IMG/VR virus record: IMGVR_UViG_3300042898_003781
Span: 1-47,230 of that record
DNA from: a virus
Reading direction: 5' to 3' (one strand)
DNA: 47,230 nt
Shown here: piece after piece, positions 5,311 through 24,736 of the stretch
Numbering within the stretch: position 1 is the stretch's first letter
Layout: every line of letters begins with the position of its first letter
Translations under genes and position numbers: made by a program
Notes under the pieces: generated by a model
What the model saw: only the letters and a program-made list of their open reading frames with translations
What the model was told of the DNA's origin: nothing
The model's database searches: none

Positions 5311-6174
5311 TTATTTAAAACCGTCTGTTTGCAAAAATTTTGGGGAGAAGTGAAATCCCGCACCAATATAAACACCAGGTGAAATGCCACCTGCACCTAC
5401 AACATAACCAAATCCCATATTTAACCCAAGGCCAAATCTCTTTCTTTCCTGCATTAAAGTTTTTCTATTCTCGGGGGTATCTTTTATTTGGAATGAGTTA
5501 ATGTCGCTAAAGGTTATACCAGGATAGTCCGTGGATACCCTCGTCATTAGTCTTTTAGTTTTAGGATCTCTGTAAAGTCCAGACACAATGGATATTTGCT
5601 GTTCTATGTTAATCTCTGCGGGGTTGGTAATTAAATTAGCACTTACAATCTTAGGGTCGGTCTCGTCTTGATTTATCTTAATTTCATATGGAATCTTACC
5701 AGAGATCTTCAATGAATTCTGACCAGGCAGTGTTGGATTGTGTGTAAAGCTTACATACTCCTGACCTGTCTGATCTTTATGTACCTTAGTTGGTACGTCT
5801 CTAAAAACATCAATATATTTAACAACAGTCTGTATTACAACCTCTGGTGTTTTTTTCTTAGATAAATCTAGCTTCTCTATTAGCTCTTTATTGTCCTCAG
5901 ATAATTCAGACATCTTTAGTTCGTAAGCAGATTTCTCATTAACCAGGTTGCCATTCTTATTGGAAATAAATCTCACTGAATCCTGTGAGGCCAATAAATT
6001 ATTATGCTCTCTTTTTACTTCAGCTTCCATTCTATCACTTACGTTGCATTGTCTAAGAAGCAGCAAAGCTAAAATAACAGCTGCTATGGCAAAACCATTC
6101 CTTTTAAGAAACGAATAGGATTTTTCCTTTATTGTTTCCTCGTTATCCTTGATAACTTGCTTCAGATTTTTCAT
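5311..6174 (-). CDS. Membrane-anchored coiled-coil protein with glycine/aromatic beta C-terminus (spanin-like candidate)
   Basis: A 287-residue protein with three visible parts. One transmembrane segment spans 26-41 (NGFAIAAVILALLLLRQ), with a basic N-terminal flank suggesting the N-terminus stays inside. A charged coiled coil covers about 46-108. The periplasmic part is beta-rich and ends at 245-283 in glycine/aromatic strands (GLGLNMGFGYVVG, GVYIGAGFHF) like those of outer-membrane beta proteins. This could link inner and outer membranes, as a spanin does, or be an envelope-anchored structural protein. No lysis gene lies nearby, so this is inference. Its start overlaps the 92-residue coiled-coil gene by 32 bases. 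Confidence 0.55.
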   Translation of the reverse strand: MKNLKQVIKDNEETIKEKSYSFLKRNGFAIAAVILALLLLRQCNVSDRMEAEVKREHNNLLASQDSVRFISNKNGNLVNEKSAYELKMSELSEDNKELIEKLDLSKKKTPEVVIQTVVKYIDVFRDVPTKVHKDQTGQEYVSFTHNPTLPGQNSLKISGKIPYEIKINQDETDPKIVSANLITNPAEINIEQQISIVSGLYRDPKTKRLMTRVSTDYPGITFSDINSFQIKDTPENRKTLMQERKRFGLGLNMGFGYVVGAGGISPGVYIGAGFHFSPKFLQTDGFK

Positions 6175-6455: not shown

Positions 6456-8183
6456 TTAAGGGAAGCTTAATAGAGCTGCTGGGGGTTCACCAGAAAGAAT
6501 CGTAACTTTTGATGTATAGTTTGTTATTCTTAAAGGATAGCTTTGTCCTGAGCATGTTTTCACATAAGCCATGACCTGATTGCTATTGTTATAATGATAC
6601 ATTATATCAAAGTAATAGCAGGGTGTTCCAAAAGTAACAAATTGCTGCTGATATGTAGACTGTGTCGTTCCAGATATGTTTGTTAATTGATCCCACACTA
6701 CGCCGACTATCTTTCGGTTAGCGTTTGTAAAACTACCATAGTCAAGAAATACTCTGAATTCATTAACATAAGAGGAGCCGTATAAAGGGTAGCCCTCCGG
6801 TTGCTGTGGATTTGTTACTGTACTTGGTATTTTTACATAAACCAAATTCCCCCCTCGCCACGATGTGAGTAAAGTGAAAGTTACAGTATCCGTGTAAAAA
6901 TTAGAAACGGAAGAAACGTCAGCGAAATATCTTAAATTTGCAGGTAAGGTATTAGCTGCGATATAAAAACTTCCAGACTGAGCTGCAATCGAGGTGTTAC
7001 CTACAACATGATATGAGAAAGGTCCTGTAGGTCCTGTTGGAACACCGGATGTCCATATATTATAAGAGGTGTAGCCATCACCAGTGGCTCCAAATACTGC
7101 TCTGGATCTAACATCCCTGTATGTAACATCTGTTATCGGATCGACCTCATCCAGTATAGCAGTTGATTGTTCAATACTGAAAACCTGTCTCCATACTGAA
7201 GAAGGCGGATTCTGAATCTCCGATTGAGATTGTGTTGTATAGAAGCTAGATATCGCATTACTAGAAGTCGCTCCCCTGCTTATAACTACACCCTCTTTTC
7301 TGCTCGCTACAGAAGCTGCAGGCTCTATGTTTACAGCTCCGTACACATACGTTTCCATTGATGCATTTAATTGGCTGCTTGTGAGCTGATAATTATTGGT
7401 CTGTATTTGTAGACTTCCGGTAGAAGAGAAAGTAACAGATGACATCGTAATATCATTATAAGCATTAAAATGTGCTCTCTGAGCAGACATATTAGCGTAT
7501 CCTGAATACTGCGGATAGATTAGTAGTGATCCGCTATTAGACAATACATTGAAATCGTAATTACTATTGAAATTTACCCTAGTATTATTCCCCGCTTGAG
7601 CCCAGTAGAAAGATGGCTGAGAAGTAGATGAGCTATTGGATTTGCGGAAAGAAAAAACAGGTGTAGTTACCTGATCATTCGTACTCACCAAAAGCTTTGA
7701 ATAGTTAGGATTTATGTAGCTGGATGAGTTCTCGCCGTCTGAAATAACCAATGACTTTGTATTCTGATCAGGATCTGTAAAATAGATCGCCGAATATTCG
7801 GTTGGGGCTGAAAAAGTAGGGATATCGTTTTTAACTTTAAAGAACTGTGATTCTATTAAGGATATCCCTGTACTTTGCCAGTTAGATCCATCATATTGAT
7901 AGATGCTGCCATTACCGGTTACACCCTGATCTATCCACTGGTCATATTCATTGGCATTAGAAGGCGGAATGACACTAAGCGTCCATTCGGATGCTCTCTG
8001 TCCACTTACACCAGTAGCACCAAGTTGACCAGCTCCACCTGGATATCCTGTTGGACCTATTACTCCAGATCTGCCATAAGGGCCAGATGAGAAAGATATA
8101 ATCTGAGAAAAGTTCTCGTTTATCTTGTCTACTATGAGATCCTTAGTGTCTCCGGTGAATATTTGCTTATTACTAAATCTCAT
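6456..8183 (-). CDS. Tail fibre protein with collagen-like segment (575 aa)
   Basis: First of the fibre trio by coordinate. The N-terminus has the shared module KINENFSQI (19-27), followed at 33-64 by about ten Gly-X-Y triplets (GPTGYPGGAGQLGATG), then a Trp-rich stretch (SEWTLSV, YDQWID). Collagen-like runs in phage proteins form trimeric shafts, so a fibre is likely. The remaining 500 residues are Ser/Asn/Tyr/Thr-rich and beta-structured with no recognised tip domain. A second short GPTGPTGP-like run near residue 388 may be another trimer joint. The gene lies 10 bases after the 559-residue fibre and 34 bases before the coiled-coil gene. Confidence 0.75.
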   Translation of the reverse strand: MRFSNKQIFTGDTKDLIVDKINENFSQIISFSSGPYGRSGVIGPTGYPGGAGQLGATGVSGQRASEWTLSVIPPSNANEYDQWIDQGVTGNGSIYQYDGSNWQSTGISLIESQFFKVKNDIPTFSAPTEYSAIYFTDPDQNTKSLVISDGENSSSYINPNYSKLLVSTNDQVTTPVFSFRKSNSSSTSQPSFYWAQAGNNTRVNFNSNYDFNVLSNSGSLLIYPQYSGYANMSAQRAHFNAYNDITMSSVTFSSTGSLQIQTNNYQLTSSQLNASMETYVYGAVNIEPAASVASRKEGVVISRGATSSNAISSFYTTQSQSEIQNPPSSVWRQVFSIEQSTAILDEVDPITDVTYRDVRSRAVFGATGDGYTSYNIWTSGVPTGPTGPFSYHVVGNTSIAAQSGSFYIAANTLPANLRYFADVSSVSNFYTDTVTFTLLTSWRGGNLVYVKIPSTVTNPQQPEGYPLYGSSYVNEFRVFLDYGSFTNANRKIVGVVWDQLTNISGTTQSTYQQQFVTFGTPCYYFDIMYHYNNSNQVMAYVKTCSGQSYPLRITNYTSKVTILSGEPPAALLSFP

Positions 8184-8192
8184 TTTATTTTT

Positions 8193-9872
8193 TTATGAAG
8201 TTGTGGACACACACCCGCAAACAATAGCGCTGTCGTTGGTAGTGTAATTTTTTAAATTCCCTCCCCAAGCTTTGAAGTATACTTTTAGTTCGGTCCCTGT
8301 TCTAACTATACTAAATTCAAATTGGTCCGCGTATGTGTCCTCATCCCCGCCTGTTACAAGATCGCCCAGTAAAACGGCATTTTTCACAGTTGAAGTAGTG
8401 AAGTTGAAAAATGCTGCGGGATTATTGAATGCTGAGTCCAATATAACAGTGTTAAATCCATACCCACTAGATGTTGTATTAACTCTAAATGTCATAGATT
8501 GGTTATTGTCAACTAGATACCCATATCCAGTTTTATTACTGCCTGGATTTGGTACAAATATGGCAAGTGCTTGGTTTCCCCCTGAAGCTCCGGATATATC
8601 AGGATGGAAAAATTCACCAATCTGGTGACGCATTAAATCCGAATCTGATGTTGTACTTATTGCTGCTCCCACTGTGTAAACGTCCTGTGATCCTGTAATT
8701 TTTCCAGTCCAGACATAGAAACTCGTATTATTACTACCGGATGCAGTTTTAGGATTTGGGAAATAGCCACTAGTTTTTTTAGCAAATTTATTGTTACCGT
8801 CCGAATCAGCCAGATAAAAATTATTTGGACTTGCTAAATAAGGTCCGTATTCAGAATACGAAGAAGATCCAGTGTATTTGACACTTAATAGATTTTGGCC
8901 CGTAGTATAAGATGTAGTTCTATTATAGGTTATCCCATTTTGAACCATTAGAGTGTTTCTGCCAGAATTTATTCTATCAACACCAGTAGTCGCTGAAAAA
9001 GAAACGGGTCCGGTAAATCCAACATTATTCCACACAGCATTTACCGAGTTTATAGATAGCGTCGTACCAATTCTAAAATCGCCAGTTGCTGCATAATAGT
9101 TAAGATCACTAGAGAATGCTCCGGTTATTCCAGATACTATACTTCCATCAGTGAATCTGACATCGTTATATGAGACGCCATTAAAGTTTGCAACATTAAA
9201 TCCAAGTCCACCTCTTGCCTCAAAATTCAATCCATATGCATCGGAGCTACCTGTATTTGTAGTGTACCACTTTATTTTAGGTGTTAGAGAATTAAAAGGG
9301 GAATTGCTTTGGTATTCATATTTGGAAAACTCTAGAAGTGGAAATCCCGTTGTTCCTCCTGTTTCTAGCATTACCTTAGAAAGCTGTGGATTTTTAACAT
9401 TAGGACCGGAGGCTCCCGAAAGTACTAATGTTTTTTCGAAGGGAGACGGTAAAGCTATCGTATAGGCCTGTGTGGGATAGCCTGATGTAAGGCCTGTAGT
9501 AGAAGCTGCAATTTCAAAAACACCACTCTGAGACAGTAGAAATCCCTGACTGACCCAGCTATATGTGCCATCCGATTCTATCCATTCGAAAACCTCGCAG
9601 TCACTAGCTAAATCAACCCAATAATCACCTCCTGTTACACCAGCAGTTGGTCCAGTTTCCTGAACAAACCAAAAATTACCTCTTTGTCCCTGGAATCCAG
9701 CAGGACCTGTGATACCAGTTGCACCATAAGATCCAACTGCTCCTGGTATTCCAACTGACCCGTACGCTCCGTCCCCAGCATTTATAATCTGATTAAAATT
9801 ATAATTCAGCTTATTGGCAATGTCTGCTTGAGAATCTCCTTCCTGTATGTTTAAAAGCCTTAAGTCTATCAT
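8193..9872 (-). CDS. Tail fibre protein with collagen-like segment (559 aa)
   Basis: Second member of the fibre trio. The N-terminal module KLNYNFNQI (21-29) leads into ten Gly-X-Y triplets at 34-64 (GIPGAVGSYGATGITGPAG), then GQRGNFWFVQETGPT and GGDYWVD, closely matching the 396-residue paralogue (GSRWFVQVSGPT, GDFWMD). These regions probably set the trimer attachment and shaft. The variable C-terminal 450 residues are beta-rich and end in CGCVSTTS, an unusual cysteine-containing tail. Receptor binding is inferred from fibre architecture. The start at 9872 has an AT-rich leader (ATATATAGATAG) and no Shine-Dalgarno sequence. Confidence 0.77.
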   Translation of the reverse strand: MIDLRLLNIQEGDSQADIANKLNYNFNQIINAGDGAYGSVGIPGAVGSYGATGITGPAGFQGQRGNFWFVQETGPTAGVTGGDYWVDLASDCEVFEWIESDGTYSWVSQGFLLSQSGVFEIAASTTGLTSGYPTQAYTIALPSPFEKTLVLSGASGPNVKNPQLSKVMLETGGTTGFPLLEFSKYEYQSNSPFNSLTPKIKWYTTNTGSSDAYGLNFEARGGLGFNVANFNGVSYNDVRFTDGSIVSGITGAFSSDLNYYAATGDFRIGTTLSINSVNAVWNNVGFTGPVSFSATTGVDRINSGRNTLMVQNGITYNRTTSYTTGQNLLSVKYTGSSSYSEYGPYLASPNNFYLADSDGNNKFAKKTSGYFPNPKTASGSNNTSFYVWTGKITGSQDVYTVGAAISTTSDSDLMRHQIGEFFHPDISGASGGNQALAIFVPNPGSNKTGYGYLVDNNQSMTFRVNTTSSGYGFNTVILDSAFNNPAAFFNFTTSTVKNAVLLGDLVTGGDEDTYADQFEFSIVRTGTELKVYFKAWGGNLKNYTTNDSAIVCGCVSTTS

Positions 9873-9890
9873 CTATCTATATATTGATCA

Positions 9891-10415
9891 TTAAGGGGCT
9901 AGCACAAAATATCCACTCCATCCGCCCTTTCCGTTGTAACTATAAGCTTCCCAGAAAACCCAGGGATAAGCAGTTGCACCTGGTTGTGTGCTTGCTGTTG
10001 TAGTTGTATTTGATCCAAACACAGTAACCTCTATCTGAGAACATATGTTAAAATTAGAGGTAGTAGCACCAAATATAAAATAATCAGAATTGAGCGTCTG
10101 AGGCCTAGTTGTACCGTTCCAGAACCCTATAAAAGAGAAACCGCTGAGTGAGGGAGTAGAAGAACTGGGTATAGGTCTATCACATATTATTCTCAGCTTA
10201 ACAGCCTCGCTCTTTGGTATAGCGTCTATTGAAATATAATTATCCAAATTAAATCCAATGCCCAGATAAGCCCCATTAGCCCCAGCTGTAGCAGTGCTGT
10301 CTGTTCCAACAGCGCCATAAGATGGATCTATAAAGATAGTTCTAGAATCTATTAGATCAAAATATGGTATTTCATACCAATTTATTTTATTTCTTAACTG
10401 AGGAGGAGCTGCCAT
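9891..10415 (-). CDS. Small beta-rich virion protein within the fibre cluster
   Basis: A 174-residue protein of unknown family between two collagen-bearing fibres, with gaps of 18 and 16 bases. It is rich in aromatic residues, Gly, Ser and Thr (WVFWEAYSYNGKGGWSGY at the C-terminus), which suggests a compact beta-sandwich such as a fibre tip, adhesin or fibre-associated protein. It has no collagen run, no N-terminal fibre module and no signal peptide. The ATG at 10415 is preceded by an A/T-rich leader. The role is inferred from position and composition only. Confidence 0.55.
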   Translation of the reverse strand: MAAPPQLRNKINWYEIPYFDLIDSRTIFIDPSYGAVGTDSTATAGANGAYLGIGFNLDNYISIDAIPKSEAVKLRIICDRPIPSSSTPSLSGFSFIGFWNGTTRPQTLNSDYFIFGATTSNFNICSQIEVTVFGSNTTTTASTQPGATAYPWVFWEAYSYNGKGGWSGYFVLAP

Positions 10416-10431
10416 ATTCTAAAATAAATAT

Positions 10432-11622
10432 TTAAGGGGTAGTCCAAGTAAAGACTGGACTGTTAGTATTATTATAGTACTTTTCCGAAGTTTTTTTCGT
10501 ATAAACTTTACCATTTGATCTAATTTCCAAAACAGTACCAGATTGTCCGGAAGAAAACTTAGCTAAATTGACCCCAGTTGATGCATTCAGAGATGAGCCA
10601 TAGTCAAAAAGTCTAGTAACACGGAACGGTATCTGTAAATAAGGTTGCGTAGAGATAGAATCACCGGCATTTTTAGTGATGTTGAAGTATCCATCATTCT
10701 TTGCTACGTTTGGAATAAAATTAAAATTAAATTTTATTCCCACGGAAGAGTCGTTTCCAAAGTCAGCGTATGATTGAGTGATTAGAATATTAGTAGTTCC
10801 TGCAGATAATAAATTACCACCTGGTGCATTGAGTACAATGTTTCCGCCAACAGTCATATTTTGATTTGCTAGAGTTATGGAGCTAGCCAGGGATTCGAAC
10901 TTAATCTGATTGGATGCGGTTATACTCATATATCCTGTAGCACCGCCGCCAAAATCAATCTTATATGGCCCATAAGGAACGATCGAATCTAAATTCAGAC
11001 TATCGCCCCACGAGAAAAATGGATGCTTAACGAAATCTGACGTTGCACCAGTTGATCCCGCTGTATCTAAATCAGCTCTGCTGAATTCCAGGAGGTAGTC
11101 GGAAGCTATATCGGTGTTAGTGGACACAACGAATTTAGCACCCTGTGGATTTAAGTTACCGGCTTGCTCCGGATTATCGTCTGCAACAACAAATGCAAAA
11201 TCCTGTAGATCCCCCTGATTTAAAGCCACAGCTACACCATAGCTTTGACCACTAGGTCCAACAACACCAGTTATATTCTTAAATAAGTCCTGATCTCTTT
11301 GTAGACTGGCAATGTAATTCCACCCAGTAGCTCCGTAGATATAACAATCTGCGTTTGCATCCATCCAAAAATCTCCGGTGTTCACATCTAGCCCGGTTGG
11401 GCCAGAGACCTGTACGAACCATCTGCTTCCTCTTCTTCCGGTTTCTCCTGTTGAACCAGCCGGTCCAGCATGTCCTATAGTTCCTCTTTCCCCCGTAGGT
11501 CCTTGATCACCTAGAGTGCCGCCCATAGCATTGGACATCTGATTAAAATTCTGGTTCAGCTTGCTAACCAAATCAGATTGTGGATCTGCGGGATAAAAAG
11601 TTTGTAAATTTAGTCTAGACAT
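10432..11622 (-). CDS. Tail fibre protein with collagen-like segment (396 aa)
   Basis: Third member of the trio and first in transcript order. The module KLNQNFNQM (21-29) precedes nine regular Gly-X-Y triplets at 37-64 (GPTGERGTIGHAGPAG), then RRGSRWFVQVSGPTG and GDFWMD. The distal part (about 100-396) is beta-rich, with AKFSSGQSGTVLEIRSNGKV near the end, the type of strand found at the ends of trimeric fibres. It starts five bases after the stop of the 1833-residue protein, so the two are likely translated from one message and may sit together on the baseplate rim. Confidence 0.77.
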   Translation of the reverse strand: MSRLNLQTFYPADPQSDLVSKLNQNFNQMSNAMGGTLGDQGPTGERGTIGHAGPAGSTGETGRRGSRWFVQVSGPTGLDVNTGDFWMDANADCYIYGATGWNYIASLQRDQDLFKNITGVVGPSGQSYGVAVALNQGDLQDFAFVVADDNPEQAGNLNPQGAKFVVSTNTDIASDYLLEFSRADLDTAGSTGATSDFVKHPFFSWGDSLNLDSIVPYGPYKIDFGGGATGYMSITASNQIKFESLASSITLANQNMTVGGNIVLNAPGGNLLSAGTTNILITQSYADFGNDSSVGIKFNFNFIPNVAKNDGYFNITKNAGDSISTQPYLQIPFRVTRLFDYGSSLNASTGVNLAKFSSGQSGTVLEIRSNGKVYTKKTSEKYYNNTNSPVFTWTTP

Positions 11623-11627
11623 TCCTA

Positions 11628-14600
11628 TTAAATTTTATCTATATTAAATCTGAATATAATCTGGTAATTAAAATTGGGTTCCAGCTTATATGTGAAATTA
11701 TAAACTAAATTATTAACCTTAGTTAGGATTAAGTTCTTATCTGGTAAATATCCATTTCTTAATCTTTCCGATGCAGCTATATCACCTCTAACCTGGTATT
11801 TTGCATCCTGCGTACCCGTTGCTGTCTTTTTAGCATAGACAAGTAATACAGATCCTTCATATACAGGTGCTATATTCAATTCAAGATAAGACAGTATATC
11901 ATCCTGTATAGAAGCAGGATCACCTACCCCAAATTCAGATATAATGTTATCCAAGAAAACGTTTCCTACGCCATCATTCATTAGATATCTTCTTAGCATT
12001 CTATCCAATCTAATTACACCTGTTATAGTTGTGGCGTTTGGTTTTTGCCAGAATATCTCAACATTAGGAAATATATTAACATTCAGTGACTGAATAGGAA
12101 TAGATGTATTATAGGGTAGAAGTACACCTATACCTGATGCCGAATTAGAGGTCGTTATATTCTGTATGGTGATTAATGAATTGAAAGCATCTGTGTTTAT
12201 AGTGCTAACGTCGCTAGTCCCGGCGGTATTACTCAGCTGAAGAACTATCTGATTATCTATAATGATATTCTTTGGAGTCTTCATCATCTTACTTCCAAGA
12301 AAGCTTTTTTGCTCAATCATGGACCTAGTACCAGCAACTGGTGTTTCCACAGTAGCCGAAGTGTACTTGTTGTAATATCCAGCATCCCACGAGGACTGGA
12401 AAACGTTAAAATCTTTTCTAGCAATAGGTGTTTGACCAACGAGTGGGTATCTTGGACCTGCTGGTAATTTCTCGCTAGCCTGTAGAATATTGTTTTCCGA
12501 TACCTTTGTGTAATTCAGATTTCTTATTAATCCAAAATCGAGTGTTTGAGGAGAAAAGGTACAGTTTCTAAATGATAAATTTATTCCCGTGTTAGGTATG
12601 GTATCGTCCTTATCAGACTGGAAGAATATCGTCTTCCTAAACATGGGCTCGTATTTTCCAGAATGCCTAAGAAGTTGAGACGGAACACCTGCTGGTAAAA
12701 CCTGTATATCGTAAGAATTAGCTTGCCTCACAGATTCAGTCTGTGGACCTCTTCCTGGTATCAATCCGGGTCTAAAGCTAGCAGCAGTAGACGAATAAAC
12801 TTTAACAGGTCTGGATTCTGCAATTTTATACAGTTCAGCTGGATCCTCGAAGTAGATAGAAAAATCATCCGGTTTTACAGAAGACGTTGATGTGGAATCG
12901 TTATAAAAATAAGATTCGTAGGTAACATAGGAATTAAGAGCATTTACTTTATCAGCAACATAAGAAAAAGAAGTTCTTTTTGCTATGAAATCAAAATAAT
13001 TTTGTCCTCCTTCTACTTGAAAAACAGGCTTGTTTCTATAGATACTGCTAGCACCGACAGGAACGGTAACAGGACTTGAAAATGAGAAAGGTACGGTAAA
13101 ATAATAATTGCCATTTTGTCCCACTGGTCCAAATTCTAAAAATCTCTCGCCAACTCCAGTTGCCCAAGGGTACTGAGTTCCTATATCAGGTACGGAGAAA
13201 CTTCCTGGTCCTTGATAACTCAATCCCGAAGCTGAAGCGCTATTTGGGTACGTTAGATTAACCTCCTCTCTTAAATCTGTATCGTAGCTGGGATTTGGTG
13301 TTATCACTATCCTTCCAGGATTTGTTGAAGTATTAACAATACTGCCTGATGCATTAGATAGATTTAAAGCTGCACTTAGTTTTGTATCCGCAATAGTATA
13401 TAAAGGCTGTCCGTTAACAAAAGATGAAGCAAGCTCGTTCTTGTCGCTCAGAGTATAAAGGAGGGTATAGTCAGCTATAGGTGATCCGCCAGTTCCCCCG
13501 GTATATCCCAATGGTTGTAGCTTATAGTCATTCATCACAACATCAATCAGCATAATTATAAACTTCTGGGTGTTGTTTTCTATGAATCTGTATGATACGG
13601 GAGTTTGTATTGTAGTGGAATTCTCCGGGATTACTCTTAGCAGAGAAGCATATCTATATCCCTCATATCCTCTATATCCATCGACATAAAGATTAACATC
13701 GTTTCCTTGGATATCAGCTTTGAAATCAGATCTTTTCTTTAATACAACTTTTGCTCCTCTAAAGATAGTTTCATAATAACCGTTACCCTCGTTGTAGGTA
13801 AACTCTGTAAATAGCTCCTTTGTCTGATCTGTCAAATCTTGATATTCAGATGGATAATCCTCAGGTGTTACTGTAAAGTAAGACGGCAAATAATCAGAAG
13901 AATTAGGTGTTGTATCTACAGCTGAACCAAGATCTATAGGTCCAGCCATATAACTTTGTTGATCCTTCATAAATTCTACAGGAAATTCCCTTGGTACATT
14001 TTCCAGAAGGAACCATTCGTGAGTCAAATACTTAGGGTCAGGATAGAAATTCTGGAACGTAGGTGAAAAGTTACTTGGAGAAAAAGAAGGACTAAGATTT
14101 AATCTATATTGGTGACCTCTAGAATCAGTACCGTTTTTATATCCCCATTTATTTATGAAAGGAACTATTCTAGATAAATTAGCTCTTTCAATTGTGTAAT
14201 TCTCCTGTAAATAAGAGTACTCGCTAGCAAGCAATCCGTAATTAAATTGCTGCTCTTTTGTTGCATTATTTGGCTGTAAATTAGTTTGCTCTATCGATCT
14301 GATACCAATGAACCCCTGGAAGCTGTTTAGATTTTTTTCATATCCAGTATCTGTACTATATGTCTCATATAAAGCATTGGAAAACTCAAGAGGATAAACA
14401 ACAGGAATTATCGTTGATGTATTATTATTTGTAAAACTAGAAGCACCGCTAACACCGGTGAAGGTGTTAGTTCCATTATAAAGAATGCCGTTATAATAGA
14501 CGGATCCGTTCTTTACATAATAAGGTATATCAGCTACTATTTCTCCTTCCGTATCGGGTAAAAGTTGGAAATATCGGAACGTCTCGTAATTTGGATTTAT

Positions 14601-17129
14601 ACCATATACAGATGACCAAAAATCGAAATCAAAATCCTTGAAATCAAAAAATGTAAATACGCCAGTTTTTAAAATATAGGGTTCAAATACATTGAACTTC
14701 GAATCAGAGCCTAGAACTATTTGTTCATACGGGTCAGCAATAACAGCAGTTCTAAATAGACTATAGTCATTAAATCCAGTAACAAGTTTGGTGTTTGTAT
14801 CATATATCGGATCGTCAACATATCTACCAACCTCCTGTATTCTGGAGAATCCCTGCTTGGTTTGTATGAAGTTACCTATTCTGACAATATTTAAAATATC
14901 ATCGTCAAAGGATACCCTAACTAGAGGCTTATCTGTACCACCTTGAAAATACTTAACTCCGGAAACTGAGGCTGCGTCTTCGTCTTTAATATTAAGGTAT
15001 CCGCTGCTAGAAAATGAATAATATTTTTCCCAGGTAGTTCCCTCTAAAACATCAGGATTTTGATTGGACGAGGAAGGGGAAGCGGTAACGTTTGAAAGTG
15101 CCTGGTAATATTGGCTGCCATATCTTACAATGTCACCAATAGAATATGCGCTAGATGGTGACCACATCCATTGATATTTTGATTCAAAATAGTCATAGTC
15201 ATCGAAAACCGATATGTAATAGGTGGAATTGCCTATATCGTTAGCATTTTTAACTCTAATTATAGAGCTAGATTCAACTGTACCAGAATCCCACACCAAT
15301 TCAGAAACTTCATAAACTGAAGTTGAAAAAGAATTAGCTATGTCACCGGTAGTACCTGCAGATGCGTTAAAATAATAGTCGTTCCCGCTACTATATGTAC
15401 TACCAGCTACCCAAACTATCGTAGCAGAAAAATCACCACTTCTAATTATATCAAATCTCTCCGCTCCCTCCGATCTAGATCCCTGTGGCCAATATACCTT
15501 GATCACAATATCTTTGCTTGGGATATTCCAAGGTTGTAGGAATTCTATGTTGAAATAAGGGTTTCCGTTTTTACCGGCTATAAATCCATTGGCACTCACA
15601 GCTTGATTCTCTATACCTGTGAAGTTTAAAAGATCCACTGATGTGTTCTGTAAAACAAAAGTTCCTGCAGTGCATCCGGTAGATCCAGTAGCACTAAAGA
15701 ATTCTGTAGAAGGATCATAAGGGCCGTAACCATAAGGAGAACTTGCAGTTACTGAACTATCCCAGTTATCGGTTCTCTTAAGTGAATAAAAGTTATCGTT
15801 CTTATCGGTTACATAAAATAACTTCAAAGAGCTAGTCGAATTAGTGTCATTTGATCCAGGAAGGAATCCACTTGCTCCCTCATAATATAATCTAACACCT
15901 GCGGTAGCAGCTACCGGATATGATGTATTGTCGTAATAATATCCGAATGCATTTCTGCTAGGTATTGGATAATTTTGATTACCCTCTGAATTTCTAAATT
16001 GATAAAGGAATTCACCATTTAGTATAAATTCACCAGTGTCATTTCTAGAAACATAAGCTCCGTAATATCTATTGATATCATAGTCAATTGCTTCAGAATC
16101 ATCAAAAAGGAATTCAAGATTTAAAAGACTAGGACAAATTATTCCATTTCTAGAAAATCCTTCTGTGATAAATCTTTCCAAGTCGATTTGTACAGTTGAA
16201 TCAGAGCTTGTGAAATAATCCCAGGTCAATTCACCCGCTTGTGTGTAAACTCCAGAATTTACAGATATACCATTGAAATATGTAAATCCGCCATCCCCTA
16301 GATTAATGTTCACTGGTGAATACGATTCCCCAATGTCCGAAAATATACCTCTGATATAGTTACCTATTCTTGTACCAGACCTGAGATCGAAAGTTTTTAT
16401 TACGCCGGAATTTGGTAATATTTTATCGGTAAAATAAGTCTGTACATCATCTACATTATCAATGTTATAGAGTTCATCGAATATAACAACAGATCCGCTT
16501 CCTGAAAAAATGCTATATGATGTTAGAGAGTTTAGACCAGTGAAAAAATCTCCACTTTGATAATAAACTGGATTTCCACTTCCGTCTACTCCGTATCTGA
16601 CCACAAAATTATCCTGATCGTAATTCTTAACCACCTTATACTTCACACCAGAATTGATAACAGTCTGATTCTGTGAATATGTATAGGAAAGAGGTCCAGG
16701 TACTTTGAATATAACAAAGAAATCAGGTATCTCACTCTTTACCCAAAGTGGTGCAAAATAAGAGAAGTCTTCCGGATAATTTTTATCTATAAGTGTTTGA
16801 GCACCAGCAGAATATAAAAAATCATATTGCCCTGCATAGTTATTAGTGGATTGATTCTCACCGTTTGTCAATTGACCAACCTTAAAAACAATGCTTCTAG
16901 ATATTAGGCTAGGGTTAAAGAATTGAAAAAGATCCTGTGCGTATGTTTTTTCTCCGGTAACATTATACTTTTTAAAAGTATCAGTACTTAAAGCGGTATC
17001 CGCATTAATCGAATTCAGCCAAACCCCTCCATCTGAATCAACAGTGATTTTTACATTTCCCGATAAAACGGGATTTGTTCTCATTAAAGAGAATGAGGTG
17101 TTGTAGTCGTATAACTTTTGAAATGCCAT
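11628..17129 (-). CDS. Giant tail-periphery structural protein (1833 aa)
   Basis: The largest protein in the window, without a signal peptide or membrane segment. It is Tyr-, Asn-, Ser- and Asp-rich and beta-structured along most of its length. The N-terminus (MAFQKLYDYNTSFSLMRTNP) and the segment FSYFAPLWVKSEIPDFFVIF near 120 are distinctive, but I know no named domain for them. A region near 655-685 (WMWSPSSAYSIGDIVRYGSQ) resembles short carbohydrate-binding modules (SxxYxxGDxVxYxGxxY). Giant proteins between baseplate wedge genes and fibre genes usually form peripheral baseplate or fibre-attachment structures. That role is inferred from gene order. Confidence 0.65.
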   Translation of the reverse strand: MAFQKLYDYNTSFSLMRTNPVLSGNVKITVDSDGGVWLNSINADTALSTDTFKKYNVTGEKTYAQDLFQFFNPSLISRSIVFKVGQLTNGENQSTNNYAGQYDFLYSAGAQTLIDKNYPEDFSYFAPLWVKSEIPDFFVIFKVPGPLSYTYSQNQTVINSGVKYKVVKNYDQDNFVVRYGVDGSGNPVYYQSGDFFTGLNSLTSYSIFSGSGSVVIFDELYNIDNVDDVQTYFTDKILPNSGVIKTFDLRSGTRIGNYIRGIFSDIGESYSPVNINLGDGGFTYFNGISVNSGVYTQAGELTWDYFTSSDSTVQIDLERFITEGFSRNGIICPSLLNLEFLFDDSEAIDYDINRYYGAYVSRNDTGEFILNGEFLYQFRNSEGNQNYPIPSRNAFGYYYDNTSYPVAATAGVRLYYEGASGFLPGSNDTNSTSSLKLFYVTDKNDNFYSLKRTDNWDSSVTASSPYGYGPYDPSTEFFSATGSTGCTAGTFVLQNTSVDLLNFTGIENQAVSANGFIAGKNGNPYFNIEFLQPWNIPSKDIVIKVYWPQGSRSEGAERFDIIRSGDFSATIVWVAGSTYSSGNDYYFNASAGTTGDIANSFSTSVYEVSELVWDSGTVESSSIIRVKNANDIGNSTYYISVFDDYDYFESKYQWMWSPSSAYSIGDIVRYGSQYYQALSNVTASPSSSNQNPDVLEGTTWEKYYSFSSSGYLNIKDEDAASVSGVKYFQGGTDKPLVRVSFDDDILNIVRIGNFIQTKQGFSRIQEVGRYVDDPIYDTNTKLVTGFNDYSLFRTAVIADPYEQIVLGSDSKFNVFEPYILKTGVFTFFDFKDFDFDFWSSVYGINPNYETFRYFQLLPDTEGEIVADIPYYVKNGSVYYNGILYNGTNTFTGVSGASSFTNNNTSTIIPVVYPLEFSNALYETYSTDTGYEKNLNSFQGFIGIRSIEQTNLQPNNATKEQQFNYGLLASEYSYLQENYTIERANLSRIVPFINKWGYKNGTDSRGHQYRLNLSPSFSPSNFSPTFQNFYPDPKYLTHEWFLLENVPREFPVEFMKDQQSYMAGPIDLGSAVDTTPNSSDYLPSYFTVTPEDYPSEYQDLTDQTKELFTEFTYNEGNGYYETIFRGAKVVLKKRSDFKADIQGNDVNLYVDGYRGYEGYRYASLLRVIPENSTTIQTPVSYRFIENNTQKFIIMLIDVVMNDYKLQPLGYTGGTGGSPIADYTLLYTLSDKNELASSFVNGQPLYTIADTKLSAALNLSNASGSIVNTSTNPGRIVITPNPSYDTDLREEVNLTYPNSASASGLSYQGPGSFSVPDIGTQYPWATGVGERFLEFGPVGQNGNYYFTVPFSFSSPVTVPVGASSIYRNKPVFQVEGGQNYFDFIAKRTSFSYVADKVNALNSYVTYESYFYNDSTSTSSVKPDDFSIYFEDPAELYKIAESRPVKVYSSTAASFRPGLIPGRGPQTESVRQANSYDIQVLPAGVPSQLLRHSGKYEPMFRKTIFFQSDKDDTIPNTGINLSFRNCTFSPQTLDFGLIRNLNYTKVSENNILQASEKLPAGPRYPLVGQTPIARKDFNVFQSSWDAGYYNKYTSATVETPVAGTRSMIEQKSFLGSKMMKTPKNIIIDNQIVLQLSNTAGTSDVSTINTDAFNSLITIQNITTSNSASGIGVLLPYNTSIPIQSLNVNIFPNVEIFWQKPNATTITGVIRLDRMLRRYLMNDGVGNVFLDNIISEFGVGDPASIQDDILSYLELNIAPVYEGSVLLVYAKKTATGTQDAKYQVRGDIAASERLRNGYLPDKNLILTKVNNLVYNFTYKLEPNFNYQIIFRFNIDKI
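14998..15174 (-). other. Carbohydrate-binding-module-like segment inside the 1833-residue protein
   Basis: This stretch encodes WMWSPSSAYSIGDIVRYG followed by SQYYQALSNVT and, further on, NPDVLEGTTWEKYY. The spacing, with an aromatic start, a Y-x-x-G-D-x-V pair and a final W, resembles chitin/cellulose-binding modules of family 5/12 type that occur in phage tail proteins. If so, it may touch surface polysaccharide. The call rests on motif pattern alone. Confidence 0.4.
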
Positions 17130-17222: not shown

Positions 17223-20200
17223 TTAACCACGTAGTACGTTATTTATAATATTAACCGTAGAATTTGCTGGTGGAGTTACTTGAGAGCCAAAGTTAGGAGC
17301 TATAAGGGTCTGGTTTCTATACGAACCGGTAACTTCTATATCAAAAGAAAATACACTAATCGCTCTCTGTTGTAAGTCTATACCAATCTTCTTAGTATAA
17401 GTTACATTACTCAAAGTACCAGCTTTTCTATATCCTCCGATATATCCGCCAACATCCTGTGCTCTAAATTGGAATATAATCGGAATATTGACAGAGTTAT
17501 TCTGTCCTTGATAGATCCTCTTAGATGACTGAGACGTAAATCCATCTACAGCTAAATAAGTTGTTTGTGGTATACCTAAGAAAAGATAAGCACCACAGGA
17601 ATATTTACCAATGAGGTACTGATCGTTTGCATCAAATCCAACTCTATCCTGCCACTGCGAATCGTATATGTCAACAGAGGCAGCAGTTGCTCCTGCCGCT
17701 GCTGTTGGAGTTCTATATTGAGTTTGTGAATAATACTCAGGTAGAGTTATATCAGCGTAGAATCCGATTGCATGTCTGAATGCAGGATACAAAATAGACC
17801 CTGCTACTGTATTATCGAAATTAGGCTTAACATAGGTAACATAATCACCTGTAGCACCAGTATTCAAAGCAGGATGGGTTGTAGATATACAGAATTCTGA
17901 AACGTACCCTCCTCCCTGTGGTGTTGTGCCTGACCATAAACCAGACCAGATACCTGCAGCTGTACCGCCGGAAGCTGTGACTGGCGTATTTTGCGGATCG
18001 TATGGTATCAAACAAGATCCATTGAGAGGCATAATTCCACCAGTTACACCAAAGAAGGAAGTGCTAGGTGTAGTACCTGAATAGTCATATAAAGGATTGA
18101 AAGCTGGTATCTGTGAACTTGTTAGATATAGGTCCTGATTCAATCCAATGTTCTTGTACCTTGAATACATGTACTGTCCATATGTTTGAGCACATGCAAA
18201 AGGAGCAGCCTGATAAATTTCGGTATTTGAAATTACGTCTGAAGATGCGTATGTTGTTACCGATAAAGGAACCGCGCCATATCTAAGGTTAGTTCCATAT
18301 CCATCTATCTGAGGATAAGTCGAAATAGGAGCTTGAGTGGTAAATCCGCCAGGAACTATAGACTGAAGTTCTACAGGGGTTGCCTGAGAGTTAGTAAGGG
18401 ATATAAGATAGGTCTTAGTGTATATCTTACCTACATTTGCAGGAACAGTTAGATCAAATAGATCATTATAGTATCCCGCATTTAATGAAATTACCTGTCC
18501 AGCTGAAACTTGAAGTGAACTAATACCGTCTAACAAATAAACTTCGAGAACACCAACAGTAACAGAGACAAGGGATTGTAGTGTGGCAATCTGTTGTTGA
18601 AGTTCCGCTAATTTATCAAATATGCTTATGGTTCCACCCGCTGAATTGAAAAAGCCAGATGCTATACTCGAGGCCTGGTGGAAATATGTAACTACATTCT
18701 CAGTAAACTGCTCGGAAAGATGCTGAGGAAGTCCCTGTGCATTAAGATTCTCCTGAACAGTTACTACTGCTGAATCCTCGCTATTTTTCTTCAATAGATC
18801 AGTTATACCATTTACAGCTAAGTCGCTAGGGAAGGAAATAGAAACAGGATCGGAATATATCGATACGTGAGGATTATTAGGCCATCCCGCTTCAGACACA
18901 GATGCGATTTGTATTTCTACTTTTTCACCCTTTTGAATGGGAATATCAATTTGATTTATATTTTGAGCATCAGCATTATCAACATTCTCAGGAGCCCAAA
19001 CATAAACTCCTCTATTCTCATCATAGACTTTCTTTCTGATTGGAGTTGTATATTCTACCCAGTTGGAGAAAGCTCCGGTCTTTTGCTGTCCGTTATTATC
19101 AACGAATTTAATTTGCTCAGTTGGCTGTGTTGCACCACTATCAGAAAGATATCTGTATCTTACCTTGAAAGCTATTACCTGCTGAGAACCAGTTAAAGGA
19201 TCGAAAACAGGATCGGGTATTGCCCAGAATCCTCTTACTCTATATTTAGGCTGCGTATCAATCTGTGAAAGATCCGACGTAGTTGTTTGGATGTCCTTTA
19301 CAACAGACGAGTAAAGCTGACTCTTCTTTGATTTCTCGTTTATAAGGGAATCTAATTTCGCTTGTATCGTACTAACTGCTCCGGAGGAAGCTTTAGCTGT
19401 GCCCAGTGATTTAGCTTGGTTTAGCTGAACTTTAGTTTGATTAATCGAAGCATCCAATGCATCTATCTCGGTCTTAAGTGAACTTTTAGCAGCAACCTTA
19501 TCTGTAGCTGTTTTAGCAGAAACAGAGTCAGTAACCTGCTTGTTAATTTGAACCACTTTAAAGTTTGTCTCAGCAACAGTAGGCACATTAGGTGTTAATC
19601 CTTGAATAGCCGGAACTGTTTTTTCCTTTGCCATATCGAGAAATACCTTACCGATATCCGCTACCTGTGTCAAATAAAACTGTTCCAGTGAAACAAGATT
19701 ACCAGCTGAATCCAGCGTGGTTAATTCACTGCTCCAGAATGTGATACCTGTGGACCACTCAGATGAAACTATATTGAAATTATCATCGATTGTCTTAAAG
19801 AAAACTCCTTGTCTTTCATCATTTCCGATGTTAACATCAACGAATCTGTCGCCAAGGTCATTTGAGAAATAGCTAAGTGTATCAGCTCCTAAGAAAACCT
19901 GCTGATAACCGGATACCCTCTGTAATTGAACTGAGGATTCGTCTAGGTTAACAGAGGTGATTAAATAGATCGTTCCGTCTGCGGTTGCTAGTCTATTCCC
20001 GTTATTGAGTGTCCTGCTATTCTTTACCCCTGTTGTTGTATCTGTGTACTTTAAACTTGTTAGTTTATAATTACGAACAGTTGTTTGAACTAGTTGTCCA
20101 TTTTGGCTTGTTGTAGAAACAACGCTATCGTAAAAAGAGGTAACACTAAAAGATCCAGTATATCTAAGTTTTCTCAGAGGTAATTGCTCTAGACTTTCGT

Positions 20201-20786
20201 CAGTGAAGTATTGAATTCCCGCAGCAGTTAATTCGGATACGAAGGTATCATAAGAAACGTCATTTCTACCCTTTAAAGAATTATCAAAGAAATCCTTTTG
20301 AGCCTGAGTTGTTGTGTTAGCAATAATTCTTTTAACAAGTATTCTATCAGCATTTTCAGAGATCTTACCTGTTACATCTATACTCACATATAAAAGTGGA
20401 CTTAGAAAGCTTTCAAAGAACCAATTGTCCTTGGTCTGGAATGTTCCAGGTACAGGAAGATTGGCCATCGGTGCAGGATTCTTTAAAGGTTCTGCTTTGA
20501 AGACCTGAGAATATGTTCCGTCGGGATTTCTAACAGTTGATCCGTTAGATATTCCAGCTAAAGATTTAATATTATTATCAATCCTCTCGATTTGGGCTCT
20601 CATGTATCCATACGAAGGAATGCTCGCTGTTGTGGGATTCCCATTGTCATCTAATACCTCGATTGAAACGGTTTCGTTCGTAGACGTCGCTACCTCATTT
20701 AAACCATTAATAATTTCTAAGGCATTCTTTTGAAGCCTCAGAAATTGAGCCACTAAAGAACTTATCGAATTTTGGGTGCCTGCCAT
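17223..20786 (-). CDS. Large tail protein with coiled coil and Fn3-like region (1187 aa)
   Basis: The N-terminal 40 residues are helical (SSLVAQFLRLQKNALEIINGLNE). A long Lys/Ala/Ser-rich coiled coil spans about 400-510. A beta-sandwich of fibronectin-III character follows at about 515-660 (FKVRYRYLSDSG, FSNWVEYT, EIQIASVSEAGWPN). Fn3-like modules are common in phage tail tips and fibres, where they give weak contact with cell-surface carbohydrate. After another short helix with LQQQIATLQSLV (about 727-738), the C-terminal half is beta-rich and ends in NSTVNIINNVLRG. A baseplate-rim or fibre-hinge role is plausible. It starts five bases after the 733-residue gene. Confidence 0.65.
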   Translation of the reverse strand: MAGTQNSISSLVAQFLRLQKNALEIINGLNEVATSTNETVSIEVLDDNGNPTTASIPSYGYMRAQIERIDNNIKSLAGISNGSTVRNPDGTYSQVFKAEPLKNPAPMANLPVPGTFQTKDNWFFESFLSPLLYVSIDVTGKISENADRILVKRIIANTTTQAQKDFFDNSLKGRNDVSYDTFVSELTAAGIQYFTDESLEQLPLRKLRYTGSFSVTSFYDSVVSTTSQNGQLVQTTVRNYKLTSLKYTDTTTGVKNSRTLNNGNRLATADGTIYLITSVNLDESSVQLQRVSGYQQVFLGADTLSYFSNDLGDRFVDVNIGNDERQGVFFKTIDDNFNIVSSEWSTGITFWSSELTTLDSAGNLVSLEQFYLTQVADIGKVFLDMAKEKTVPAIQGLTPNVPTVAETNFKVVQINKQVTDSVSAKTATDKVAAKSSLKTEIDALDASINQTKVQLNQAKSLGTAKASSGAVSTIQAKLDSLINEKSKKSQLYSSVVKDIQTTTSDLSQIDTQPKYRVRGFWAIPDPVFDPLTGSQQVIAFKVRYRYLSDSGATQPTEQIKFVDNNGQQKTGAFSNWVEYTTPIRKKVYDENRGVYVWAPENVDNADAQNINQIDIPIQKGEKVEIQIASVSEAGWPNNPHVSIYSDPVSISFPSDLAVNGITDLLKKNSEDSAVVTVQENLNAQGLPQHLSEQFTENVVTYFHQASSIASGFFNSAGGTISIFDKLAELQQQIATLQSLVSVTVGVLEVYLLDGISSLQVSAGQVISLNAGYYNDLFDLTVPANVGKIYTKTYLISLTNSQATPVELQSIVPGGFTTQAPISTYPQIDGYGTNLRYGAVPLSVTTYASSDVISNTEIYQAAPFACAQTYGQYMYSRYKNIGLNQDLYLTSSQIPAFNPLYDYSGTTPSTSFFGVTGGIMPLNGSCLIPYDPQNTPVTASGGTAAGIWSGLWSGTTPQGGGYVSEFCISTTHPALNTGATGDYVTYVKPNFDNTVAGSILYPAFRHAIGFYADITLPEYYSQTQYRTPTAAAGATAASVDIYDSQWQDRVGFDANDQYLIGKYSCGAYLFLGIPQTTYLAVDGFTSQSSKRIYQGQNNSVNIPIIFQFRAQDVGGYIGGYRKAGTLSNVTYTKKIGIDLQQRAISVFSFDIEVTGSYRNQTLIAPNFGSQVTPPANSTVNIINNVLRG

Positions 20787-23014: not shown

Positions 23015-23938
23015 TTATCCAGCTGTAACGTTCTGTCCACCTAGAATAACCCATGAACCTTTTTGTTCTGTTTGGTCACCTGCAATTCTAGATTCCCATT
23101 GTAGTGTAACAGAACTTCTGTATGGAGTATTAGCTGCGAAAGTGATACCAGTATACGAGCCATATGTGCTGGTAGTATTAAACCCAGTATAGTAAGTTTG
23201 TGTTACACCAGTAACTCCAGTTGCAATAAAAGGTGTGGTTGCTCTTGCAGTGTTAACGATAGTAACTCTGTATCCAGAAGGCAAGTTAGATGCTGTGCCT
23301 CCGCTTCCCCCAACAACCTGCATGTAAAATCCGGTTGGACCGCAGTTTGCATAGATAACATCTTCAGTTCCAGTGAAGATGTAAGGATTGTTAACATTAG
23401 TAGATATACCACCGCCGCCTACACCAGTTGTACTAACAGGAAATGCAGAAGTTAATCCAGGTGCTCCACCAGCTAATGATCCATTAGTGCTCCAGTTGTT
23501 TGCATGGACCTCGTTAGAATAAGCCCCGTAAGTCGATCTTCCAGTATAACCAACGTTACCAGCAAAGCTAGCTGTTACACCAGCTGCTTGAGTTAGATTA
23601 CCAGCTATACCCAATGCCCCACTAAATGTGGATGCTCCAGATACTGCTAGTGTCTGTGTTGACGTCGAAACAAAAGAAGCAGCACCGTTACTTGCTATTG
23701 CTGCTAGTGCAGTGCCTGACGCAGGGGTGGAGAAAGTGTTTGCTCTAATAGTCAAAGCAGAAACCCTACCCGTTGAAGCTCCAGTTAGATCCATTACACC
23801 AGTAGAGGTGTCTATTCCAAATACATTTTCAAATCCATTTACCCAATTCTGAAGAATTAGAAAGTTGGAATTTATGGTAATTCTAGATCCCGATATCGAA
23901 TCAGAACCTAAAATTTCAGTAATACTTACAGATGCCAT
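23015..23938 (-). CDS. Short tail fibre protein (307 aa)
   Basis: The N-terminus contains ITINSNFLILQNWVNGFENV (21-40), a relative of the N-x-N-F module found in the three collagen-bearing fibres. It lacks a collagen run and instead continues with Ala/Ser/Thr/Gly repeats (TQTLAVSGASTFSGALGIAGN at about 97-117, first 20 typical), the strand-turn pattern of trimeric phage fibre shafts. The C-terminus is beta-rich with SVTLQWESRIAG. It is probably a short or accessory fibre. A GATATATA box lies 32 bases upstream of the ATG. Confidence 0.65.
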   Translation of the reverse strand: MASVSITEILGSDSISGSRITINSNFLILQNWVNGFENVFGIDTSTGVMDLTGASTGRVSALTIRANTFSTPASGTALAAIASNGAASFVSTSTQTLAVSGASTFSGALGIAGNLTQAAGVTASFAGNVGYTGRSTYGAYSNEVHANNWSTNGSLAGGAPGLTSAFPVSTTGVGGGGISTNVNNPYIFTGTEDVIYANCGPTGFYMQVVGGSGGTASNLPSGYRVTIVNTARATTPFIATGVTGVTQTYYTGFNTTSTYGSYTGITFAANTPYRSSVTLQWESRIAGDQTEQKGSWVILGGQNVTAG

Positions 23939-24002: not shown

Positions 24003-24683
24003 CTAATCTCTAAAGTCACCGTAAACTCTAAGGATCGGTTCCACTATTTCGTGTCTATGATTAGTTTTAAGCGAGATCACTTTAACACCCTTAACATTCT
24101 CCTCTAATCTAGCAAAAAAGCTTATTCCGCTTTCTTTCTTATTCTTAAGATCCGATTGTGTTATGTCCCCGCAGAAAACCATTTTACCACCTTTACCTAA
24201 GCGGCCTAGCATCATCTCGGTTTGACTGTGTGTGATGTTTTGACACTCGTCAACGACAACGAAGGAATTAGGGAATGTTCTACCTCTCATGAAGGCAAAA
24301 GGCACTATCTCTATTTGATTCTCAGCTAGCATCTTATCAACTTTCTCTCTATCGTATAAAAGATGGAGATTTGAATAGATGGGAGCCAACCACGGATCCA
24401 TTTTTTCCTTGAGATCGCCGGGCAAAAAACCTATGTCCTCTTTTGCTACAGTCGGTCTGGTTATTATGATCTTTTCTATTTCCCTTTTGAAAAACATGTC
24501 CATAGCAACCTGGCAAGCAACTAAAGTCTTACCAGATCCTGCTTGACCTTTTATCAAGACAACAGGATTATCGTAAATCAGTGATTTTGCTATTTTTTGT
24601 TCCTCGTTTAATTCAATTTTGAATCTTATCGGATTTTTAGGTTTTCTTTTTTCCGAATTTGGGATTTTTGATAGTTTTTCCAT
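24003..24683 (-). CDS. phoH: PhoH-like ATPase
   Basis: A 226-residue protein of the PhoH family, a P-loop ATPase related to the RecD/Upf1-type helicase core and common in T4-like and marine phages. Walker A is GQAGSGKT (46-53), Walker B is VVVDECQN (142-149), and the sensor is GDITQSDL (172-179). TRPTVAKEDIGFLPGD (75-90) is a family hallmark. The biological role of phage PhoH is not settled. RNA metabolism and helicase roles have been proposed. I place the start at the ATG at 24683. An in-frame TTG at 24710 would add nine residues (FISNII...), which are less family-like. It stands alone among tail genes, an unexpected place for an ATPase. Confidence 0.92.
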   Translation of the reverse strand: MEKLSKIPNSEKRKPKNPIRFKIELNEEQKIAKSLIYDNPVVLIKGQAGSGKTLVACQVAMDMFFKREIEKIIITRPTVAKEDIGFLPGDLKEKMDPWLAPIYSNLHLLYDREKVDKMLAENQIEIVPFAFMRGRTFPNSFVVVDECQNITHSQTEMMLGRLGKGGKMVFCGDITQSDLKNKKESGISFFARLEENVKGVKVISLKTNHRHEIVEPILRVYGDFRD

Positions 24684-24736
24684 ATTAGATATTATATTAC
24701 TTATAAACAAAAAGGATTCGATTTATCCACTTATTT

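Follow-up and report, generated by a model that had tools for sequence, protein, structure and literature searches.

In T4, gp9 attaches to gp7 through its N-terminal domain, and gp10 is similar to gp9 over its N-terminal 200 residues (PMC3004832). Among collagen-containing phage proteins, the Escherichia coli prophage fibres EPclA-D have been demonstrated experimentally to form trimers (PMC3368898). With respect to self-processing, S74 is a known self-cleaving fibre domain (PMC7824862), and phage genes for terminase and reductase are known to contain Hint or intein domains (PMC3556154, PMC5259590).

The window analysed here—that is, the whole 47,230-base stretch of the record IMGVR_UViG_3300042898_003781—belongs to a large phage, T4-like and PAU-like, and carries its tail and baseplate block, with genes for a gp32-like SSB, a RuvC-like resolvase, a tail tube protein, a gp6-like wedge protein, and several very long structural proteins, together with a second, weak baseplate-wedge match. 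A PhoH-like gene (24003–24710) also sits within this block. The 1187-aa gp264-like protein, which belongs to a PAU/PTm1/Lak-type large-phage module, matched 31 records at 25–35% identity, the closest annotated relatives being the Tenacibaculum phages PTm1/PTm5/pT24, Chryseobacterium MA9V, Flavobacterium MaF61, Sphingomonas PAU, the Prevotella Lak phages, and uncultured phages of 460–735 kb. Within the block lie three tandem genes, P1, P2, and P3 (Table 1). With a probability of roughly 0.7, their products are three tail or baseplate fibres, paralogous and probably homotrimeric, whose genes go back to tandem duplication, are locked in position, are inherited vertically, and undergo exchange where they encode the far C-terminus.

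Table 1. Coordinates of the fibre genes, their parts, and the neighbouring genes used for comparison (window positions unless otherwise given).
Feature	Coordinates	Strand	Remarks
P1, fibre 1, 396 aa	10432..11622	-	beta-type body after the anchor, an 11-triplet Gly-X-Y stem, and the Trp joint; without the tip found on P1 of relatives
P1 N-terminal anchor module, residues 1-34	11521..11622	-	KLNQNF
P1 collagen-like stem	11422..11520	-	11 triplets
P1 Trp-containing joint, residues 68-115	11278..11421	-	
174-aa ORF, separated P1 C-terminal tip	9891..10415	-	fused to P1 in other trio phages examined and in D1
P2, fibre 2, 559 aa	8193..9872	-	
P2 N-terminal anchor module, residues 1-34	9771..9872	-	KLNYNF
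P2 collagen-like stem	9672..9770	-	11 triplets
P2 Trp-containing joint	9519..9671	-	
P2 conserved C-terminal domain, residues ~430-559	8196..8585	-	homologous to the P1 tip of relatives
P3, fibre 3, 575 aa	6456..8183	-	
P3 N-terminal anchor module, residues 1-33	8085..8183	-	KINENF
P3 collagen-like stem	7995..8084	-	10 triplets
P3 Trp-containing joint	7839..7994	-	
P3 conserved C-terminal core domain, residues 384-561	6501..7034	-	predicted all-beta
P3 cassette position of relatives (Hint, helical or none)	6459..6500	-	here 14 residues, without cassette
1833-aa structural protein, immediately upstream of the fibre genes	11628..17129	-	a homologue lies before the fibre gene(s) whether relatives have one, two, or three copies
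1187-aa structural protein, PAU gp264 family	17223..20786	-	vertical control
307-aa protein, N-x-N-F start only	23015..23938	-	one per trio phage examined, 46-95% identical
Hint domain in P3 of relatives (positions in P3)	L074 1121-1267; L075 1131-1273; L085/L087 about 610-760; L088 621-769		

A preliminary description of this DNA had noticed that all three proteins begin with K-(I/L)-N-x-N-F-x-Q, and this start is indeed common to them (KLNQNFNQ in P1, KLNYNFNQ in P2, and KINENFSQ in P3). The Gly-X-Y runs that follow it were likewise recognized correctly, but they number 11, 11, and 10 triplets rather than nine or ten. Furthermore, the Trp-rich joint is borne out by alignment: W86 and W101 occur in all 32 sequences and W68 in at least 90%. 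The 174-aa ORF between P1 and P2, missing from that description, also belongs to the fibre set. Profile matches of the trio to tail-fibre families span the collagen-like run and the joint. Pfam scans detected no Peptidase_S74 domain in the trio or in any of 20 fibres scanned from relatives, and no Phage Tail Collar domain (PF07484) in the trio; PF07484 is present in the single-copy relative L118 (E 4e-23) and, being the head type of short tail fibres, supports an attachment role for these proteins, which would bind receptors. The C-terminal core of P3 was predicted to be a compact beta domain (pLDDT 77), and a fold search with it returned nothing from the PDB at E ≤0.001, its single viral hit being weak (TM-score 0.25); an AlphaFold2 model of the whole of P2 (pLDDT 40) was discarded as unusable. 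A 287-aa protein (5311–6174) directly after the trio has an N-terminal hydrophobic stretch and weak similarity to DUF6808 and overlaps a 92-aa ORF; ORFs of similar size come after the trio in most relatives.

The N-terminal module of 36 residues occurs in three copies in each trio record and nowhere else in these mostly incomplete records (up to 434 kb) at E <0.1, the two additional matches being at chance level (E >0.1). Comparison of its profile with the N-termini of gp9 and gp10 from T4-like phages by hhalign gave 79.7% with a score of 25.7, whereas none of 100 shuffles exceeded 19.1; the shared register is GD-x7-K-I-N-x-(N/D)-F, and the alignment, at about 22 columns, is short and supportive only. 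Searches of the PDB yielded only chance matches, and thus no solved structure, for the 36-residue module, and matches dominated by collagen composition for a longer module profile. No Pfam or PHROG baseplate-wedge match was obtained for the trio, nor were the middle and C-terminal domains of gp9/gp10 found in it. From the match to the gp9/gp10 N-termini, taken together with the binding of gp9 to gp7 in T4, we infer that the anchor module probably docks on the baseplate as in gp9/gp10. The 307-aa protein, said previously to have the N-x-N-F module only, does carry N-S-N-F equally far from its start as in the trio and without a collagen run; it resembles the module only weakly (hhalign 54.7%, score 22.0; shuffled maximum 20.6).

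Among all ORFs of the window, Gly-X-Y runs of at least six triplets are found only in P1, P2, and P3, the chance expectation for such runs being 3e-9 to 5e-8 per protein. The scores against Pfam PF01391 (14.5, 18.8, and 22.0 bits) fall below the curated cut-off of 27.2 because the runs are about half the model length, and "collagen-like" is therefore used descriptively. The yield of relatives depended on the query: P1 retrieved very close relatives only (tblastn with P1 against 50,697 phage records gave no match), the 1187-aa protein 23 loci, and a P3 alignment 80 loci. The tandem trio recurs at 33 non-redundant IMG/VR loci from which near-copies were removed, a count in which slightly differing loci may represent closely related phages more than once. 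From N-x-N-F to the first Gly, a spacer of eight residues was present in 107 of 108 proteins. Eleven triplets were counted in 66 of the 67 P1, P2, and single-copy proteins, and 10 or 11 in 30 of 31 P3 stems; in relatives with two copies, all D1 stems have 11 triplets (5/5) and all D2 stems 10 (5/5). Given this near-constant number, the stem is close to a fixed ruler. The collagen-like runs are hence kept in relatives, and this part of the preliminary description withstands the comparison. The P2 collagen stretch of contig L034/L059, which reads in two frames, is intact in the near-identical contig L058, reflecting either an assembly error or a real change. The stems would adopt a trimeric collagen triple-helix state.

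Relatives carry one fibre gene (L110, L113, L118, and L122), two (L094, L098, L100, L102, and L108), or three, and in all three classes the gene or genes come right after one homologous to the 1833-aa gene. In PAU, PTm1, and LR756500, the equivalent genes are followed by a single N-x-N-F protein whose start is collagen or collagen-like. Since the copy number is one, two, or three but the position always behind the same 1833-aa gene, the series indicates tandem expansion, the simplest history being from one gene to two (one P1/P2-like and one P3-like) and then to three. The 1833-aa protein itself shows a carbohydrate-binding CBM_5_12 match below threshold (E 0.003).

The rest of the three proteins, described at first as different, does differ by eye; by profile, however, the bodies are paralogous. 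Profile–profile comparison of the parts after the joint gave 99.6% for P1–P2, 98.1% for P2–P3, and 96.7% for P1–P3, whereas reversed, column-shuffled, and unrelated-gene controls reached 0.6% or less. The homology between P1 and P2 extends to the C-terminus; that of P3 covers its shaft, without the last 220 residues. In a tree of the bodies, P1, P2, P3, D1, and D2 each form one clade (SH-aLRT 87–99), with D1 adjoining P1, and a tree of the N-terminal parts (residues 1–116) recovers the same positional groups, with one extra step needed for P3 and moderate support (84–89) for some groups. The copies are thus duplicates and orthologous by position. Moreover, pairwise body identity tracks that of the 1187-aa gene (Spearman rho 0.92, 0.93, and 0.86), at a median of 33–39% for the fibre bodies versus 57–65% for flanking structural genes.

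In the window and two sisters, P1 of about 395 aa is followed by an ORF of 169–174 aa, whereas elsewhere P1 is a single piece of 509–594 aa. The 174-aa ORF matched the last 160 residues of fused P1 with 83% by hhalign (P ~1e-6), shuffled and reversed controls reaching at most 1.4%. As the D1 genes of two-copy phages are in one piece, the split P1 would be the derived state.

Exchange does occur in the relatives, at the last 110–200 residues of P3 and at an extra C-terminal domain of P2, in each case hundreds of residues past the joint. The clearest case comes from the DNA of the sister phages L084 and L109, which is 84% identical across P1, P2, and P3 as far as a Ser/Gly/Thr-rich linker after the P3 core, then unrelated for about 480 bases to the L084 stop codon, and then at once 90% identical. 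P3 ends in a Hint-like domain in L084 and in a helical domain in L109; the latter (L109 5690–6049, LYRQG...ADEKFG) is found as well at the end of the second fibre in the two-copy phages L100/L102 and had no match in annotated phage records. The P2 proteins of L060/L076 and L092/L107 are extended at the C-terminus by a domain of about 100 residues that is absent from close relatives. Across the relatives, the P3 slot holds a Hint/intein-like domain in many, a helical one in others, or nothing, and on the P3 tree the Hint state needs six changes, at least five of them by well-supported branches. In the window, P3 ends 14 residues past the core without any of the Hint residues (C1, T-x-x-H, H-N). 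The very long P3 proteins (1159–1284 aa) of L071, L074, and L075 contain DUF5122 beta-propeller-type repeats at about residues 790–835.

The Hint domains fall into two sets, A7 (L074, L075, L085, L087, and L088) and a divergent form, A8 (L061, L064, L065, L081, L084, L090, and L105), whose profiles match each other at 96.9%. Matches to solved Hint, BIL, and intein structures reached an E of 2e-22 for A7 and 1e-4 (2LWY) for A8. C1, T67-x-x-H70, and H146-N147 are invariant in A7, as are S-x-x-H and H-N in A8, in which Cys1 is kept, also in the full L065 protein. H-N is followed by K, V, I, or L, and not by C, S, or T. In intein chemistry, such a residue misfits splicing and fits cleavage-type domains, and the cassette thus fits a cleavage-type domain. 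Hint-domain matches in annotated phages lay in helicase, portal, similar, or unnamed genes, and were mostly ordinary inteins, not fibres; a Hint-like match in Lak-B2 was not in a collagen fibre gene. A literature search, which may not cover all literature, found no Hint-ended fibre. A tentative proposal, which we hold somewhat doubtful, is that the P3 end is a cassette site in this large-phage family at which the last 110–200 codons are swapped as a unit (Hint, helical, or none), that, as the fibre matures, the Hint domain either cleaves itself from it, making this domain an intein-type analogue of the S74 intramolecular chaperone, or links the fibre end to some other molecule, and that the phage of the window is in the cassette-free state.

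These patterns bear on three other explanations. Tip swapping occurs in fibres of other phages, and the preliminary description accordingly took the trio for duplicated attachment parts on a common anchor, with tips exchanged at the Trp joint between copies and between phages. The common N-terminus and stem and the visibly different bodies speak for this model, and its duplicated fibre genes are upheld, as is swapping in related phages so far as it concerns the extreme C-termini of P3 and P2; exchange of unrelated tips at the joint is not. The bodies are paralogous, the N-terminal and body trees agree on the positional groups, and the recombination breakpoints expected at the joint were absent, identity in 18 close pairs remaining steady across it in sliding comparisons. 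Since swaps were seen only at the extreme C-termini and nothing in the sequences suggests swapping at the joint, this model is very improbable. Assembly of P1–P3 into one fibre, whether as proximal, middle, and distal segments or as a heterotrimer through the collagen stems, has in its favor the tandem arrangement, constant company, and fixed order of the genes, nearly equal stem lengths, and joint vertical inheritance. It nevertheless appears improbable, because an anchor module and a head are present in every one of the three proteins, relatives with one or two copies exist, and P3 often has 10 triplets where the others have 11.

Alternatively, the proteins could be structural baseplate pins, like T4 gp9/gp10/gp11, that couple receptor contact to baseplate rearrangement and whose heads do not bind receptors. 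The gp9/gp10-like N-terminus, the vertical inheritance of the heads, and the location within the baseplate/tail block are all consistent with such a role. Pins, however, are at odds with bodies that evolve faster than the flanking structural genes, with C-terminal cassettes that turn over, and with the collar-fibre head of a single-copy relative, and we regard this explanation as unlikely, if a little less so than the single compound fibre.

On the preferred reading of three separate paralogous fibres, one fibre gene would have given rise to three by two rounds of tandem duplication. The 34-residue N-terminal module of each fibre would dock on the baseplate, as in T4 gp9/gp10, and the triple-helical collagen stem of 10–11 triplets may act as both spacer and trimer clamp, after which come the joint with its Trp residues, a shaft rich in beta structure, and the head at the C-terminus. 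The copies would have diverged into fixed positional roles, with the set inherited vertically, and host adaptation may proceed through divergence of the bodies and through gain, loss, or replacement of cassettes at the very C-terminal end, chiefly that of P3. In the phage of the window, P3 would function without a cassette, and the P1 head would be made as a separate 174-aa protein.

Such a history would mean that a large phage expands its attachment apparatus by whole-gene tandem duplication, with the one-, two-, and three-copy stages visible in relatives, near-fixed anchor and stem length, and positional roles that do not mix. Placing the point of exchange at the extreme C-terminus instead of the stem joint can guide annotators on the site of natural tip exchange. 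Should the Hint cassette cleave, phage fibres would have two kinds of self-processing, the S74 chaperone being the other.

Compared with known systems, the trio has the motif of T4 gp9/gp10—GD, seven residues, and K-I-N-x-(N/D)-F, about 25–30 residues from the start—but gp9/gp10 lack a collagen stem, and the trio bodies have no family match to them. As in EPclA-D, non-collagen N- and C-terminal domains flank a collagen stem; however, the PfN/PfC domains are absent from the trio by Pfam, and the stem length, which varies in multiples of three in EPclA-D (PMC3368898), is nearly fixed in the trio. FibU (gp68; 6V8I) of Staphylococcus phage 80alpha is likewise a baseplate fibre with a collagen run of about 30 residues (profile match E 5e-5, in the collagen part), but has an N-terminal Ig-like BppU domain with no such match in the trio. 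The P3 cassette of relatives resembles the BIL/Hint domains 2LWY and 6Y75 (profile E 5e-14 and 2e-22) and retains C1, T-x-x-H, and H-N; it differs from them in its place at a phage fibre end, the window P3 having no cassette. PAU gp266, PTm1 ORF-008, and the 1789-aa protein of LR756500 share with the trio the position downstream of the same large structural gene(s), N-x-N-F, and a short collagen or collagen-like run; unlike the trio, each is a single gene, with a larger body and a shorter stem (four triplets in PAU and eight in LR756500).
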